DNA from: a virus
Virus record (IMG/VR): IMGVR_UViG_3300047564_003843
Coordinates: 1 to 64,000 of that record
DNA length: 64,000 bases
Strand: one strand, 5' to 3'
Shown here piece after piece: positions 50,847 through 63,464 of this stretch. Each line of letters begins with the position of its first letter. The stretch's first letter is position 1. The translations under genes were made by a program, and so were the position numbers. Below the pieces are notes generated by a model. It searched no databases. It had not been told where the DNA came from and was given only the letters and a program-made list of their open reading frames with translations.

Positions 50847-51551
50847 ATGGGAAAAAAGATAATCAAGTTTGGAAGAAGTCACGACTACCCTGAACTTCCT
50901 GTACCCGTTAGAAATGTAGTTCCAGATTGGTATAAAAAATCTCCTAGATTTATAGATGGCAAAGAAGCTTCTATTATTTATACCGAACGAGGTGCTCGTT
51001 CTAATATTGGTATGAAGATGTGCGTTCCATTTTTTGACGCGATGATTTGTGGATATACAGCAACTCTTTGGCAAGATGTCCAAGTAACAAGACGACCAGA
51101 TGGTTTAAAACTAGATTGGCTTGTAGACCCTACCCCAATCAATGACAGAAGTAGTCATGGTATGGAACTTCTTCCTATTCCTGCAGGACACTATCCTCAG
51201 CAATACGCTTGGGTAACACCTTTCTCAATTCAAACTCCTCCAGGCTATAGTGTTCTTATAACTCATCCGTTTAATCGTTATGACCTCCCGTTTACAACTT
51301 TGAACGGTATTCACGATTCTGACTCAATAATGCCTCACGGGCACTTACCTTTTTATATGAAAGATAATTTTGAAGGAGTAATTCCAGCAGGAACTCCTAT
51401 TTATCAAATCTTCCCATTTAAACGCGATGCTTGGGAATCAGAGTTTGACGAGACCCTTGGTAAAAAAGCAGAGAAGAGAATGTGGGACGGTATGACCAAA
51501 ATGTTTGGACATTACCGAAATAACATATGGAATAAGAAAGAGTACAACTGA
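50847..51551 (+). CDS. Conserved WYKK protein (DUF6065-like), copy 1
   Basis: 234 residues. VVPDWYKKSPRFIDG, CVPFFDAMICGY, VTPFSIQTPPGYSVLI, FEGVIPAGTPIYQIFPFKR and a C-terminal WNKKEYN align along the full length with the leftward gene at 62739, so the genome carries two diverged copies. I associate this family, from phages and bacteria, with DUF6065, unverified. Its stop overlaps the halogenase start by one base, which couples the two. In T4-like phages such genes lie near halogenase-type genes; role unknown. Leaderless-type start (TAGGCT, six bases, ATG). Confidence 0.8.
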   Translation: MGKKIIKFGRSHDYPELPVPVRNVVPDWYKKSPRFIDGKEASIIYTERGARSNIGMKMCVPFFDAMICGYTATLWQDVQVTRRPDGLKLDWLVDPTPINDRSSHGMELLPIPAGHYPQQYAWVTPFSIQTPPGYSVLITHPFNRYDLPFTTLNGIHDSDSIMPHGHLPFYMKDNFEGVIPAGTPIYQIFPFKRDAWESEFDETLGKKAEKRMWDGMTKMFGHYRNNIWNKKEYN

Positions 51552-53119
51552 TGGAGCTTAGAGACATAAAGAATGTGACCATCATTGGTGGTGGTACAGC
51601 AGGGTGGCTCGTTGCTCTTTATGCAAAGACAGTTCTTCCAACAAAAAGAATAACCTTAATCGAGTCAGACAAAATCGGTATTCTTGGTGCTGGTGAGGGA
51701 GCAACTCCTCAACTAATTAGCTTTTTAGACGTACTACAAATACCTGTTTCTAAATTAATTCAAGAAGCAGATGTAACACTTAAGCAGGGTATTAAGTTTA
51801 CAAATTGGCACAAAGGTGGAGATTCTGATTGGTTCTATCACCCATTTGTTGGTTTTGGTAATGTTGCTGCCACAGAGGTTTCTTTAGAAAGATATGTCTC
51901 TGGTACACCAGCTCTTTTTACACAGGTAGCAAAACTACAAGAACCTCAAGAAGAGTGGTGTTTTATGACCCGCTTATGTGAGCAGAACAAGGTTGCCTTC
52001 AAACCACATAGAGAAGAATTTTATCCAGCATCAGATCCAATTTTTCAATACGAAAAGATGGGAGCATTTTCTCTACATTTTGATGCTAGAAAACTTGCTG
52101 CGTTTTTATCAGAAACTGGTCAAGAACGCGGTATTCAAAGAATTGAAGGTTTAGTAGAAAGCTATAAAACAGATGATGAAGGTTATGTCAATGAACTTCT
52201 TTTAGATAATGGAAAGTCAGTAGATACTGATTTTGTTTTTGACTGCACTGGTTTTAAGTCTTTCTTTGCTAAAGAGTTTGAAACTAGTTGGGTGTCTGCT
52301 AAAGACCATTTAACTGTCAATGCTGCTATGCCTTTCTTCCTTGATATAGAAAGTCCTATCCCTCCATACACAGAAGCAGTAGCAATGAAGTATGGGTGGA
52401 TGTGGAAGATTCCTCTTCAATCTCGTTATGGTTGCGGTTATGTTTTTAATAGCAACATGATTGATGATGCTCAAGCAAGAGAAGAGATTATTGATTATCT
52501 TGGCTATGAACCTGAATGGCCTAGGGAAAAATCATTTAGTTGGGAACCAGGTTATTTATCAGAACCTTGGAAAAAGAATGTATTTACGATTGGTCTTTCT
52601 GCAGGTTTTGTTGAACCGCTAGAAGCTACTTCTATATGGTCAACTGTTATTGATTGGTCTAGTGCATTACTTGGCAATGTAGAACTTATGTATACAAAAG
52701 ACCAAAGTATTATTGATGATTTCAATAACTTCTGGCGTAAGAATCAAGAAGAAGTTATCGGCTTTATTTATGCTCATTACATGAGTGGAAGAACCGATAC
52801 AGAGTTTTGGGAGCACTACACCTACGAAAATGCACCTGCTTCATCAAAACGTTATTTAGATATAAATAATAAAAGATCCTTTATCCTTAATGATTTTATA
52901 GACCACAATTTCTTTGAAATTGATTCATGGTCTTATATTCTTCTCGGGCTTAAAAATAAAAAGTTTATAGAACACCACAAGCTATTCGAGTTCTATAATT
53001 TTACAAGAACTTTTATGGAACAAAGATATACAAGCTTTAAAAAACTTATTCAATATGTAGCAGACAATGAAGCAATCACCCACGACGAGTTTTTGGAGAA
53101 GATGAATGAAAAACAATAA
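51551..53119 (+). CDS. Flavin-dependent tryptophan halogenase-like
   Basis: 522 residues, the usual length. GGGTAGW (13-19) binds FAD; GEGATP (48-53); TLKQGIKF with the candidate catalytic Lys 78, which in PrnA-type enzymes guides HOCl; GWMWKIP (282-288), the family signature; and GFVEPLEATS with Glu 358 in the position of the PrnA active-site Glu. All core residues are present, so it should be active with a flavin reductase. Substrate may be tryptophan, an indole or a peptide; flanking genes suggest a small modification cluster (50847-54418). Known as rare phage cargo. Confidence 0.88.
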   Translation: MELRDIKNVTIIGGGTAGWLVALYAKTVLPTKRITLIESDKIGILGAGEGATPQLISFLDVLQIPVSKLIQEADVTLKQGIKFTNWHKGGDSDWFYHPFVGFGNVAATEVSLERYVSGTPALFTQVAKLQEPQEEWCFMTRLCEQNKVAFKPHREEFYPASDPIFQYEKMGAFSLHFDARKLAAFLSETGQERGIQRIEGLVESYKTDDEGYVNELLLDNGKSVDTDFVFDCTGFKSFFAKEFETSWVSAKDHLTVNAAMPFFLDIESPIPPYTEAVAMKYGWMWKIPLQSRYGCGYVFNSNMIDDAQAREEIIDYLGYEPEWPREKSFSWEPGYLSEPWKKNVFTIGLSAGFVEPLEATSIWSTVIDWSSALLGNVELMYTKDQSIIDDFNNFWRKNQEEVIGFIYAHYMSGRTDTEFWEHYTYENAPASSKRYLDINNKRSFILNDFIDHNFFEIDSWSYILLGLKNKKFIEHHKLFEFYNFTRTFMEQRYTSFKKLIQYVADNEAITHDEFLEKMNEKQ

Positions 53120-53477
53120 AACACCAAAGAACTACCAATACAAAGACCCAAACTTCTACACAAATCAAGAAGTCTTTGACGGAAATGTGAAGAAACACTT
53201 TCAATGGGTCAGAGCACTAAAGACGATGGGTCAACGCAGTTATTGGAATGTTCCTAACACTGTTGAGTTTCTAGCATTTACCACTAAGGCAGTTATCATC
53301 ATTCCAGGTTTGCTTTTTGGTGTTTCTATTTGGTGGCTGTATATTTTTGCTCTTGTAACTAGTTTTTTATTAATTTGGTCAGCTACTATAAAAACTTTGC
53401 CTACACTTATCTGGTTTAATATTTTATGGGTTATTCTTGCATCAACCTTTATTGTAAAGCACTTTGCAGGATTGTAA
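53106..53477 (+). CDS. Membrane protein in halogenase cluster
   Basis: 123 residues. Two or three hydrophobic segments after residue 50 (TTKAVIIIPGLLFGVSIWWL; FALVTSFLLIWSA; LIWFNILWVILASTFIV). It overlaps the halogenase end by 14 bases and its stop overlaps the next start, so the four genes are tightly coupled. May anchor or export the product; inference. Confidence 0.75.
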   Translation: MKNNKTPKNYQYKDPNFYTNQEVFDGNVKKHFQWVRALKTMGQRSYWNVPNTVEFLAFTTKAVIIIPGLLFGVSIWWLYIFALVTSFLLIWSATIKTLPTLIWFNILWVILASTFIVKHFAGL

Positions 53478-54418
53478 TGGATTTTTCAAAGTTTCCTTAC
53501 ATTAGAGATTTAGGCGGACATGTAATTGATGTCCGTCGATTAATTGACCCTAACAATAAAAATTGGGGTGCAACTAATCTTTCTATTGGAAACTACAAAA
53601 ATAAGTATGTTGGAGCTTTGCGCTCAAGTAATTATGTAATTATGGATAACGGAAGTTATACCGTTACCGAAGGTAATCTCATCACTTCAAAAATATATTG
53701 GGGCGAGTTTAATAAAGAATGGAAGTTAGAAAATCTAAGACAGATAGATACTTCTATTGCAGGAGATTTAAAACGAGGTTTAGAGGACCCTAAAGTTTTT
53801 TATCGAGATGGTGCTTGGCACATAACCTGCGTAATTATGGATAAAGAAGAAGTCCCATATGCACGTATGGCAATTGCTCGTCTTGACTCAAAGTGCACAA
53901 AGCTTGTAAGTTTTGAAGTCTTAAATGGTATGGATACTCAGCGTCCAGAAAAGAATTGGATGCTTCCTTACGAACCAAATCCACATTTTGATTTTATTTA
54001 TGGACCAAACTCCACAGTTCAAAATAATATGATGACAATGCTTTTTACAGATGTAAGAAAGCTTTCACAACTTCGAGGCAACACAAACTTGCTTCTTTTA
54101 GAAGATGGAACATATCTTGGAGTTATGCATAGAACTTTTGTAAGAAACGAGGCTAGGTGGGAGCCAAAACGATTTAGCACTCAAAATGCCTCTGTCAGAA
54201 ATTACATTCATTACTTTGTAAGATTTGATATTGAAGGCAGTATTTTGGAGATTTCTAAAGGCTTTCAGTTCTTCAAGTCAGGGGTTGAATTTGCTGCTGG
54301 TTTAGTTGCCCACAAGGACAATTTCTTAATTAGCTTTGGCAGAGATGACCTATCTAGTCATATCGCCGTGATGCCTAAAGACCTAGTTTTAAAATCACTC
54401 ACACCAATCGAGTATTAG
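53477..54418 (+). CDS. Five-bladed beta-propeller (glycoside-hydrolase-like) protein
   Basis: 313 residues from ATG 53477. Blade-like repeats: GALRSSNYVIMDNGSY, EDPKVFYRDGAWHITCVIMD, FIYGPNSTVQNNMMTMLFTD, and a later SGVEFAAGLV segment. The layout of short strands with DPK/DPR-type words fits the GH43/GH130/GH32 propeller superfamily, which acts on sugars. Catalytic acids cannot be assigned. Likely a carbohydrate-active partner of the halogenase cluster, or a surface-binding protein. Confidence 0.7.
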   Translation: MDFSKFPYIRDLGGHVIDVRRLIDPNNKNWGATNLSIGNYKNKYVGALRSSNYVIMDNGSYTVTEGNLITSKIYWGEFNKEWKLENLRQIDTSIAGDLKRGLEDPKVFYRDGAWHITCVIMDKEEVPYARMAIARLDSKCTKLVSFEVLNGMDTQRPEKNWMLPYEPNPHFDFIYGPNSTVQNNMMTMLFTDVRKLSQLRGNTNLLLLEDGTYLGVMHRTFVRNEARWEPKRFSTQNASVRNYIHYFVRFDIEGSILEISKGFQFFKSGVEFAAGLVAHKDNFLISFGRDDLSSHIAVMPKDLVLKSLTPIEY

Positions 54419-54665: not shown

Positions 54666-54870
54666 TACTACTCAAATCATAAAGCTAGACAACACACCGC
54701 TTGAATATATAACTCCCCGCGAACGTTGCGACGCTTGCGGTCATCAAGCATATTATCGTGTTACTTTTGAAGCAGGACATCTATTCTTTTGCAGACATCA
54801 CTACATCAAACAAGAAGATGCTTTCTTTGAGAAAGCTTTAGATATCGTTGACGAGTCTGAATTACTTTGA
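54658..54870 (+). CDS. Small actinobacterial-type zinc protein
   Basis: 70 residues, overlapping the DUF3039-like gene by eight bases. ERCDACGHQAYYRVTFEAGH with FFCRHHYIKQE gives Cys-x2-Cys and Cys-x2-His-His, like the small actinobacterial proteins I know as DUF7455. Probably zinc-binding; function unknown. Confidence 0.8.
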   Translation: MSDTTQIIKLDNTPLEYITPRERCDACGHQAYYRVTFEAGHLFFCRHHYIKQEDAFFEKALDIVDESELL

Positions 54871-55248
54871 AGGCTTTGTAAAGTCTTCGATAGTAAATCC
54901 ATCAGTTCTTTCAAGAACCACATAGGTGTAGTCAAAAAGACTGAGATTGCTTTCAAGATTATCTAGAACTTGTTTTACAGGAAGCTCTCCACATGTATAT
55001 AAATCAAACTGGACTTTTGAAGGTTTATCTTCATCCCAGATATGCATAGCAATATGAGAAGTCTCAATCATAACTACTGCTGTTAAACCACGGTTTCCTT
55101 CAGCAGTTACATATGAGGCATAAGGTCCTTGAATGACCTTCATATCAATGGATTCAACAAGCTCACGCATCCAATTGATAACAAGTGTTTCGTCAGTCGG
55201 TGGATTAAGTGTCCACCCGTTTACTAGTAAATGGTTGTGTAAAGGCAT
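54862..55248 (-). CDS. speD: S-adenosylmethionine decarboxylase-like (SpeD)
   Basis: 128 residues, the bacterial SpeD length. ETSHIAMHIWDE holds Ser 64, the cleavage and pyruvoyl residue, and His 69; FDLYTCGE holds Cys 86. Spacing agrees with Thermotoga-type enzymes (Ser 63, His 68, Cys 83). It should self-cleave and decarboxylate AdoMet, the first step to spermidine, whose polyamines could neutralise packaged DNA. The Glu-Ser pair is Thr-Ser here. Leaderless start (TAGGCT, six bases, ATG); stop overlaps the convergent gene by nine bases. Confidence 0.85.
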   Translation of the reverse strand: MPLHNHLLVNGWTLNPPTDETLVINWMRELVESIDMKVIQGPYASYVTAEGNRGLTAVVMIETSHIAMHIWDEDKPSKVQFDLYTCGELPVKQVLDNLESNLSLFDYTYVVLERTDGFTIEDFTKPSK

Positions 55249-56903: not shown

Positions 56904-57983
56904 ATGGAGAGTTGGCAAAAACTAGATAGGTCATCTACCCCTTTGACCTCAACAGTTGAGATGGACAGCCTTACACAAGAGCTTGTTCGTCCCTTCGATT
57001 ACGAAACAAACGGTCTTTCAACCTTTCACCCGTTTGTTCTTCCAAAACTTCCTAGTGAGTTTAATCTTGGCGTAATTGTTGGTGCCTCTGGGACAGGTAA
57101 GTCAACTCTCCTCCAATCTTTTGGAAATCCAGTAATTCCAACTTGGGACTACAACAAATCAATTGCATCTCACTTTGATAATCCAGTAGATGCAAGTGAG
57201 CGCTTATCTGCAGCAGGACTTATGTCTGTTCCTGAGTGGGTAAAGCCTTATCAGGTTTTATCAAATGGACAAAAGTTTCGTGCTGACTTAGCAATATCTT
57301 TGCAAAGTGGTGCTGTCATTGATGAATACACATCTGTTGTAGATCGTAATGTTGCAAAAGCTGCATCAACATCAATGTCTAAATACATTCGTCGTAACAA
57401 CATAAAAGGAGTTGTGCTGGCAACTGTTCACCGCGACATCCTTGAGTTCCTTGAGCCAGATTGGGTTATTGATACTGACCGTGGCGAATGGACCTCAGGA
57501 AGGTATCTTCAACGACCTGAACTGGTTCTCGACATATATCCTGCCCACAACAGCGTTTGGGGATACTTCGCTTCGCACCACTATCTCTCCGAAAAGCTCA
57601 ATAAGGCCTCACACAGCTACTTGGCTATCTGGGAACAACAGTTAGTTGGTTATGTAGCAGCAATGACTTATCCGTCAGGCACTGTGCAAAATGCTTGGCG
57701 TGAGCATCGTTTAGTAGTTCATCCTGATTATCAAGGACTTGGGTTTGGCCCAAGAATTTCAGAAGCAGTTGCAGAGTATTATATAAATCAAGGAAAAAGA
57801 TATTTTTCAAAGACTTCTCATCCACGCTTAGGCGAATATAGAGACACTTCTAATTTGTGGAAACCTACATCAAAAAACCACATGAAACGTTTAGATGGAC
57901 ATATTGAACGTACAAATATGAGATGGCAATTAAATCCAAATCGATGGTCTTATTCTCACGAATATATAGGAGAAAATAAGTAA
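56904..57983 (+). CDS. ABC-type ATPase fused to GNAT-like transferase
   Basis: 359 residues. The N-terminal half is an ABC ATPase: Walker A GASGTGKST (60-68), signature-like LSNGQ (119-123), Walker B AVIDE (137-141), switch His 176. The C-terminal half (about 219-345) is GNAT-like: HRLVVHPDYQGLGFGPRISE with the QGLGFG acyl-CoA loop. No membrane segment, so it is not a transporter. Such fusions occur in actinobacterial genomes and phages; a Mom-like DNA or nucleotide modification role is conceivable but unproved. Leaderless-type start (TAGCCT, six bases, ATG). Confidence 0.85.
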   Translation: MESWQKLDRSSTPLTSTVEMDSLTQELVRPFDYETNGLSTFHPFVLPKLPSEFNLGVIVGASGTGKSTLLQSFGNPVIPTWDYNKSIASHFDNPVDASERLSAAGLMSVPEWVKPYQVLSNGQKFRADLAISLQSGAVIDEYTSVVDRNVAKAASTSMSKYIRRNNIKGVVLATVHRDILEFLEPDWVIDTDRGEWTSGRYLQRPELVLDIYPAHNSVWGYFASHHYLSEKLNKASHSYLAIWEQQLVGYVAAMTYPSGTVQNAWREHRLVVHPDYQGLGFGPRISEAVAEYYINQGKRYFSKTSHPRLGEYRDTSNLWKPTSKNHMKRLDGHIERTNMRWQLNPNRWSYSHEYIGENK

Positions 57984-62352: not shown

Positions 62353-62742
62353 ATGTTGGCTAAGACAAATTCAGGTAGTGACAAACAAGTAATACAACCA
62401 AAACAGTGGACATTAGTTTATTTTGGTGAAAAGAAACAAACATCTTTTATATCTCATGGTGCAGGTAAACTTCTTTTTAATGTCATCCTTCGTGTTGAAT
62501 ATCCCGAGATAGGGTGCCCAAGAACTCTTCGAGGACGATTTGTCAGATGGCCTAATACATCAAAAGCAGATGAAACGGGTCATAACGATGTTAATCCAAT
62601 TGCTGGACTAACAAGACATCACCACTGGGACCACTTCTTAGAGAACAGAGCTAAAATGCCAGTAGGTTTTATAGTCTGGCATGATGGAGAAAGCCCTATT
62701 GTTCTTGATGGAAGACAGATTAAAAGCTTTTTAAGTAACTAG
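62353..62742 (+). CDS. Conserved hypothetical protein
   Basis: 129 residues from ATG 62353 with TAGGAGCCACA upstream. TRHHHWDHFLENRAKMPVGF and IVWHDGESP form a His-rich module. Mostly beta. Ends convergent with the gene at 62739 (four-base overlap). Function unknown. Confidence 0.75.
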   Translation: MLAKTNSGSDKQVIQPKQWTLVYFGEKKQTSFISHGAGKLLFNVILRVEYPEIGCPRTLRGRFVRWPNTSKADETGHNDVNPIAGLTRHHHWDHFLENRAKMPVGFIVWHDGESPIVLDGRQIKSFLSN

Positions 62743-63464
62743 TTATATTCTTTTCTAGTCCAAAACTTATCTTTGTATGCATTGTAAAAACTCATTTTTA
62801 GTTTTCTTATGCTTCTTTGAATAGTTATCATGTCTGATCTCTCTCCATACTTCATTTCATAAGATTCTCTTTTAAATGGAATAACTTGAGCCATTGGATA
62901 CCCTGCAGGGATTATCCCCTCCCACTCGGGGTCAATTAAAAATGGAAAGTTAATTGGATGAGCGTAAGTATCAGTGTCAACGATAGCTGGGATACATTGA
63001 AGTATTTGGTCTTTTGCATCTCTATTCATTGGAGGAACAAATAAACATGAGTAACCTTTTGGAGTTATTACTGTCCAAGGTGAGTGAAATTTTGGAATTG
63101 CATTGTCAGGATGTTTTTGCACATGAGGATGAGTAGACATTTGTAATGGTGGATGAAACCCTAAAACATCGTAATCAGGCCATTGAAAAAGTTGCTGACC
63201 ATCTTTTTTTGTCACCTTCACATCTGTGGTTAAAGGGATTATGTAACCTGCTGTCATAGCATCCAGCATTGGCATGCACTTTTTTCCTGTCGCGGTGCCC
63301 GTGTTCAACCCGATGTCACTCCAGTAGACAGTCCCCTGCTCTCCATCTATGTATGAAGGCAGTTTTTTATACCAGTCTGGAACAGCTTTTTTGGCGGGGT
63401 AAGGTCGAGTCTCCTCTGGGAGGTCTCCCATAAGGTCCACAAAAGTAATTGGTACTGAAGTCAT
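62739..63464 (-). CDS. Conserved WYKK protein (DUF6065-like), copy 2
   Basis: 241 residues. VPDWYKKLPSYIDG, CMPMLDAMTAGY, WTVITPKGYSCLF, WEGIIPAGYPMAQVIPFKR and WTRKEYN match the gene at 50847 along the full length, about 11 kb away and on the other strand. Unlike copy 1 it has no halogenase neighbour. Leaderless-type start (TAGTTT, seven bases, ATG). Confidence 0.8.
   Translation of the reverse strand: MTSVPITFVDLMGDLPEETRPYPAKKAVPDWYKKLPSYIDGEQGTVYWSDIGLNTGTATGKKCMPMLDAMTAGYIIPLTTDVKVTKKDGQQLFQWPDYDVLGFHPPLQMSTHPHVQKHPDNAIPKFHSPWTVITPKGYSCLFVPPMNRDAKDQILQCIPAIVDTDTYAHPINFPFLIDPEWEGIIPAGYPMAQVIPFKRESYEMKYGERSDMITIQRSIRKLKMSFYNAYKDKFWTRKEYN

Follow-up and report, generated by a model that had tools for sequence, protein, structure and literature searches.

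Results

The halogenase cluster

The window analysed here is a stretch of 64,000 nucleotides, bases 1-64000 of the 160,704-bp IMG/VR virus record IMGVR_UViG_3300047564_003843, which belongs to a freshwater phage, and its subject is a cluster of four genes encoding a DUF6065-like protein, a flavin-dependent halogenase, a small membrane protein and a propeller-like protein (Table 1). The host is probably actinobacterial, and the virus an actinophage, given the WhiB-like genes (read from sequence), DUF3039 and the resemblance to the Actinomycetia phage DSL-LC01. The open reading frames (ORFs) and the sequence confirm the original prediction that the four genes lie on the same strand and overlap: the stop codon of the DUF6065-like gene shares one base with the start of the halogenase gene (TGATG, 51549-51553), the halogenase and membrane-protein genes overlap by 14 nucleotides (ATG at 53106, TAA at 53117-53119), and the membrane-protein stop shares one base with the ATG of the propeller-like gene (TAATG, 53475-53479). 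Co-translation, which had been deduced from this arrangement, is probable for the halogenase and its neighbours; overlap alone is weak evidence because it is common in this genome, a crude ORF map of the window showing it for 26 of the 68 neighbouring pairs that share a direction. All four genes are under purifying selection: the ratio of nonsynonymous to synonymous substitution rates (dN/dS) against relatives was 0.03-0.15 wherever dS was measurable (0.03-0.10 for the DUF6065-like gene), and the genes are therefore real and maintained.

Table 1 Features of the halogenase cluster and other genes of the window.
Feature	Position	Strand	Basis or remark
DUF6065-like protein, 234 aa, predicted dUTPase-like beta fold	50847-51551	+	phrog_7084, 1.5e-36; relatives match PF19541
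Flavin-dependent halogenase, 522 aa	51551-53119	+	PF04820, 3.4e-99; catalytic residues intact
Small membrane protein, 123 aa, three predicted helices	53106-53477	+	Near virus-exclusive family pairing with halogenases
Propeller-like protein, 313 aa, possibly carbohydrate-active	53477-54418	+	Annotation of phage relatives
S-adenosylmethionine decarboxylase, opposite to the cluster	54862-55248	-	AdoMet_dc, 1.2e-14; kept in close relatives
Single chain combining P-loop/ABC-like ATPase and GNAT acetyltransferase parts	56904-57983	+	phrog_11143, function unknown
Second DUF6065-like paralogue, 241 aa, outside the cluster	62739-63464	-	Groups with the first copy, about 31% identical

The halogenase

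The halogenase matches the PF04820 (Trp_halogenase) profile with a score of 333 bits, the cut-off being 21. Its core residues had been claimed to be complete, and they were indeed found intact: the flavin adenine dinucleotide (FAD) motif GGGTAGW (G13/G15), WMWKIP (W283/W285/I287/P288), EPLE with E358, and the catalytic K78. K78 is invariant in all 75 aligned phage halogenases, while the residue following E358 is Ala in the window enzyme and in 55 of the 75. The enzyme is thus intact with its catalytic residues kept, and halogenating activity is predicted from its sequence. The phage genome contains no member of the Flavin_Reduct family.

The relatives of the enzyme in the PDB are 9luq, PrnA, RebH and VirX1. 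The match to PrnA (phmmer) spans only residues 4-422 of the query and ends before the C-terminal part of PrnA, a comparison of extent and not of single binding residues. The C-terminal region of PrnA contains part of its Trp-binding site. Halogenated free indoles, which had been suggested as compounds to look for in infected cells, are not favoured as products because the match stops short of this region.

A second halogenase, about 28% identical to that of the cluster, is encoded elsewhere in the same record (G000:108065-109567; L006:4065-5567), directly behind collagen-like fibre, methyltransferase-like and glycosyltransferase genes and followed by a WhiB-like gene. Two halogenases are also present in the close relatives G036 and G037. 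In a near-identical virus (L014:8001-9350), the halogenase carries a clean in-frame deletion of 73 residues (window residues 173-245), reflecting natural inactivation or else a faulty assembly.

The view of the halogenase as rare phage cargo did not hold, since such genes were found in 78 GenBank phage records and at least 145 IMG/VR stretches, and are reported for 20 of 153 cyanophages (PMC10452541). Phage halogenases were already known (PMC3037559), and one of them, the cyanophage enzyme VirX1, has been structurally solved and assayed (PMC8407142). The exact four-gene order, in turn, was encountered in a few close relatives only, one of them without the membrane gene, and the strict set was rejected as a general unit; two of its sub-units recur widely.

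The membrane protein and its pairing with halogenases

The first of these sub-units joins the halogenase to the membrane protein, which adjoins halogenases in scores of phages. The condition named beforehand as refuting the cluster, that halogenase homologues of other phages never have these genes as neighbours, is contradicted by this pairing and by that with DUF6065-like genes described below. Members of the family are about 95 aa long, have three hydrophobic helices and share the conserved core YWN..N.VEF.AF..K..IIIPGL....WWLY..AL..S..LIW...KT.PT.I.FN..W, with conserved Lys, Thr and Asn lying within or near the helices. No significant match was obtained in Pfam, PHROGs or the PDB fold search, the model used for the latter having a predicted template modelling score of only 0.53. 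The family is near virus-exclusive: more than 560 relatives came up when IMG/VR was searched with a profile, 84,980 cellular genomes yielded two, both metagenome-assembled, and 665 genomes related to these two hits contained no further ones. No member was found among 50,697 GenBank phages by tblastn with two family members as queries. The neighbours of one cellular relative, on a gammaproteobacterial contig (L266:7896-9000), include a polyketide synthase and a TauD-like gene that is split, so that a cellular source of the membrane protein, or a natural-product role, is possible.

Of the loci that the halogenase alone led to, nearly all show the order halogenase, then membrane protein. In the reverse direction, 73 new loci were found through the membrane protein; the halogenase lies directly upstream in 38 and elsewhere in the locus, mostly adjoining downstream, in 14 more. 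All 12 membrane-protein contigs of at least 50 kb bear a halogenase, compared with 3 of 14 large contigs picked for the DUF6065-like gene only. Placed on a tree, the halogenases that have the membrane protein next to them come from at least four deep clades, and the state changes at least 12 times; because the sample was partly chosen through the membrane protein, this count shows the breadth of the pairing, not its frequency. Separately, the membrane protein stands alone in many phages (among them L120, L128, L138 and L158) between primase-like and single-stranded DNA-binding-like genes, as named from sequence.

The DUF6065-like protein

The second sub-unit combines a halogenase with a DUF6065-like gene. 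The family label is justified through relatives only, 17 of 53 aligned ones matching PF19541 (best 1.7e-6), whereas the window protein itself is not matched by that profile. Its AlphaFold model has a predicted local distance difference test score (pLDDT) of 93.9, and the top PDB matches in Foldseek, among those listed, are dUTPase and dCTP deaminase. In a profile comparison, GIHDSD and IPAGTPIYQ align with GLIDSD and VQPGDRIAQ of dUTPase, yet the hhalign probability of 11% is not significant, and Pfam dUTPase family models match nothing in this genome, the DUF6065-like protein included. The homologue in S-CREM1 is annotated as a triphosphate nucleotidohydrolase. Since the model is confident and finds such structures while the profile comparison remains below significance, we consider a dUTPase-like fold likely and claim no activity. 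Nucleotide halogenation, conceivable from this fold and a neighbouring ribonucleotide reductase, is very unlikely, and no evidence was found to support it.

The relative of this protein in phage Syn10 occurs in 15 phage records. In six cyanophage lineages (Syn9/Syn10, S-CREM1, S-RIM44, P-TIM40, Sf-FR1 and Sf-FP1/Sf-CH3) a tryptophan halogenase directly precedes the DUF6065-like gene, which is not the case in S-RIM4. In those lineages whose annotation permits it, fibre genes are seen to come first, followed by one or two halogenases, the DUF6065-like gene, 2-oxoglutarate (2OG) oxygenases and head-tail genes. DUF6065-like genes are also widespread outside these lineages, for the most part with no halogenase, and often stand next to fibre-like, glycosyltransferase-like and oxygenase-like genes, partly as read from sequence. 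Locus L098 contains three DUF6065-like copies, one of them beside a carbamoyltransferase-like gene.

The propeller-like protein

The propeller gene had been predicted as a 330-aa ORF starting at 53426; the gene itself stands, but its relatives start at the ATG at 53477. The protein shares 42% identity with one from DSL-LC01 whose annotation is beta-mannosyltransferase, and a related family adjoins DUF6065-like genes elsewhere. It has no sequence match in Pfam, NCBIfam or the PDB, and thus none to a GH130-type propeller or a beta-mannosyltransferase, a label taken from the annotation of phage relatives. It is possibly carbohydrate-active.

Genomic surroundings of phage halogenases

Halogenases stand beside genes for virion fibres or their decoration at the second locus of this record and in DSL-LC01, Sf-CH11, L015 and L113, and the S-SRM01 halogenase has a tail-fibre operon on one side and an adhesin-tip gene on the other. 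Within 2 kb of halogenases, 8 of 89 neighbours have 2OG-oxygenase domains and 6 of 89 glycine-rich fibre domains, against 2 and 1, respectively, of 84 genes further away, both modest differences. Some halogenase/membrane-protein loci also contain genes for carbamoyltransferases, short-chain dehydrogenases/reductases (SDR) or sulfotransferases. In many such loci, sulfotransferase, Asp/Asn hydroxylase, adenosine 5'-phosphosulfate (APS)-kinase-like and DUF2061 genes lie upstream of the pair. These four form a recurrent block (e.g. L019:5831-7992), perhaps a phage sulfation unit.

Comparison with known systems

VirX1 of Syn10 (PDB 6QGM) resembles the window halogenase in its viral origin, Trp_halogenase superfamily and catalytic residues, but belongs to another deep clade of the halogenase tree. 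Its site is large and open, and many aromatic compounds of larger size serve it as substrates (PMC8407142); the open literature covered names no natural substrate for it. In Syn10 a DUF6065-like gene follows the halogenase pair, as a member of the partner family present in the window; unlike the window, Syn10 has no membrane-protein partner, and the near-identical syn9 has 2OG-oxygenase neighbours. PrnA and RebH share the FAD motif, WxWxIP and the catalytic Lys and Glu with the window enzyme, whereas its cluster has no genes of a pyrrolnitrin- or rebeccamycin-type pathway. For dUTPase and dCTP deaminase the likeness to the DUF6065-like protein lies in the predicted fold, sequence similarity being below significance.

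A different halogenase-containing cyanophage cluster was reported in 2021 (PMC7824862). Like the window cluster it is centred on a halogenase; in jumbo cyanophages such as S-SSM6a it comprises carbamoyltransferases, a HemK-like methylase and 2OG oxygenases, and a halogenated metabolite was predicted as its product (PMC7824862). The carbamoyltransferase (PF02543) and 2OG oxygenase (PF13640) families of that cluster are both absent from the 160.7-kb record. DSL-LC01 (PMC10611076), likely an actinophage, has its halogenase beside fibre, glycosyltransferase and WhiB genes, as does the second halogenase of our record; it differs in having neither the membrane protein nor a DUF6065-like gene next to the halogenase, and its relative of the propeller-like protein is located elsewhere in the genome.

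Discussion

Halogenases of many other phages, too, are accompanied by members of two uncharacterised gene families, and it is therefore probable that these enzymes do not act alone but together with partners. The reading that we put first, tentatively and at less than an even chance, is that the cluster is a phage membrane-associated halogenation module which decorates a large surface or virion structure and does not act on free tryptophan. The membrane protein would hold the halogenase at the cytoplasmic membrane or meet a generic need of the reaction, as one and the same conserved protein is paired with halogenases of several divergent clades; it is this partner that suggests action at the membrane. 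FADH2 would be supplied by the host, and the substrate may be an aromatic group on a virion fibre or on an envelope- or fibre-linked glycan, which the DUF6065-like and propeller-like proteins could also act on or bind. A large substrate of the virion or envelope surface is favoured by the fibre and decorating genes near other halogenases, the truncated PrnA match and the open site of VirX1. The phage would probably benefit through a change in adsorption, protection of the virion or a different surface on the infected cell.

Several observations weigh against this reading. None of the genes immediately next to the cluster halogenase encodes a fibre, and the closest gene for a virion protein lies about 1.2 kb past the cluster. 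The membrane protein was not found in the searched cyanophages that have a halogenase in a fibre operon, and the two halogenase contexts may therefore differ in function. Most DUF6065-like genes have no halogenase nearby, and 19 of the 73 membrane-protein loci lack one within about 6 kb, which weakens the case for a strict tie between the membrane protein and a halogenase next to it; five of these 19 contigs, including both that exceed 50 kb, bear a distant halogenase, and most others are short fragments. Finally, the membrane gene is absent from one close relative of the window. A swap for an unrelated halogenase was ruled out for L096, whose halogenase is 79% identical and in which only the membrane gene is missing.

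A more specific version would make the cluster a dedicated machine, in which the viral three-helix protein holds the halogenase at the membrane, the dUTPase-fold DUF6065-like protein serves it, and halogens are placed on fibres or envelope polymers; it would be the first viral halogen-based modification of macromolecules, and in this full form we regard it as unlikely.

The main rival is that the cluster makes a diffusible halogenated small molecule, such as an amino-acid- or sugar-linked metabolite, with the membrane protein aiding its export. Such a product was predicted for the cyanophage halogenase/carbamoyltransferase/2OG-oxygenase cluster (PMC7824862), and the carbamoyltransferase, SDR or sulfotransferase genes of some halogenase/membrane-protein loci would suit it, as would the polyketide synthase and TauD-like gene that share a contig with one of the two cellular relatives of the membrane protein. 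The record, however, has neither the carbamoyltransferase nor the PF13640 oxygenase, the cluster encodes no recognisable scaffold-building enzyme, and known exporters, none of which the membrane protein matches, are far larger than it, so that this explanation, too, appears doubtful.

Halogenation of free tryptophan or indoles by a stand-alone auxiliary metabolic enzyme with incidental neighbours is suggested by the name of the Pfam family and by kinship with PrnA, RebH and other tryptophan halogenases, and it was assumed in a cyanophage paper (PMC9964418). The repeated pairing with two partner families, the end of the PrnA alignment at query residue 422 and the larger aromatic substrates taken by VirX1 (PMC8407142) make it improbable. 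We judge it just as improbable that the genes are independent cargo sharing a mobile, accessory-rich region without joint function. Accessory regions do combine numerous tailoring genes whose order varies, the membrane protein and DUF6065-like genes each occur without an adjacent halogenase, and overlaps are common in this genome; yet these pairings are seen again with divergent halogenases, on either flank, and in six cyanophage lineages, and the membrane protein and a halogenase are found together on every one of the 12 long contigs.

A membrane protein that serves as a halide channel or importer where halide is scarce, for instance in fresh water, would account for its conservation whatever the halogenase clade, its conserved Lys, Thr and Asn, and its absence from the cyanophage and pelagiphage halogenase genomes searched, but this is very improbable, since it matches no channel fold and was not detected in the lake and reservoir phages DSL-LC01 and S-SRM01, which have a halogenase.

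Halogenases of phages have long been noted as auxiliary metabolic genes whose roles were guessed. While such enzymes were known, we found no description in the open literature of the membrane-protein partner, of the DUF6065-like partner beside the Syn9/Syn10 halogenases, or of its predicted dUTPase-like fold. The two conserved neighbours provide concrete experimental handles on the role of phage halogenases, and the near virus-exclusive membrane protein, pairing with different halogenases, would be a useful marker for such modules.

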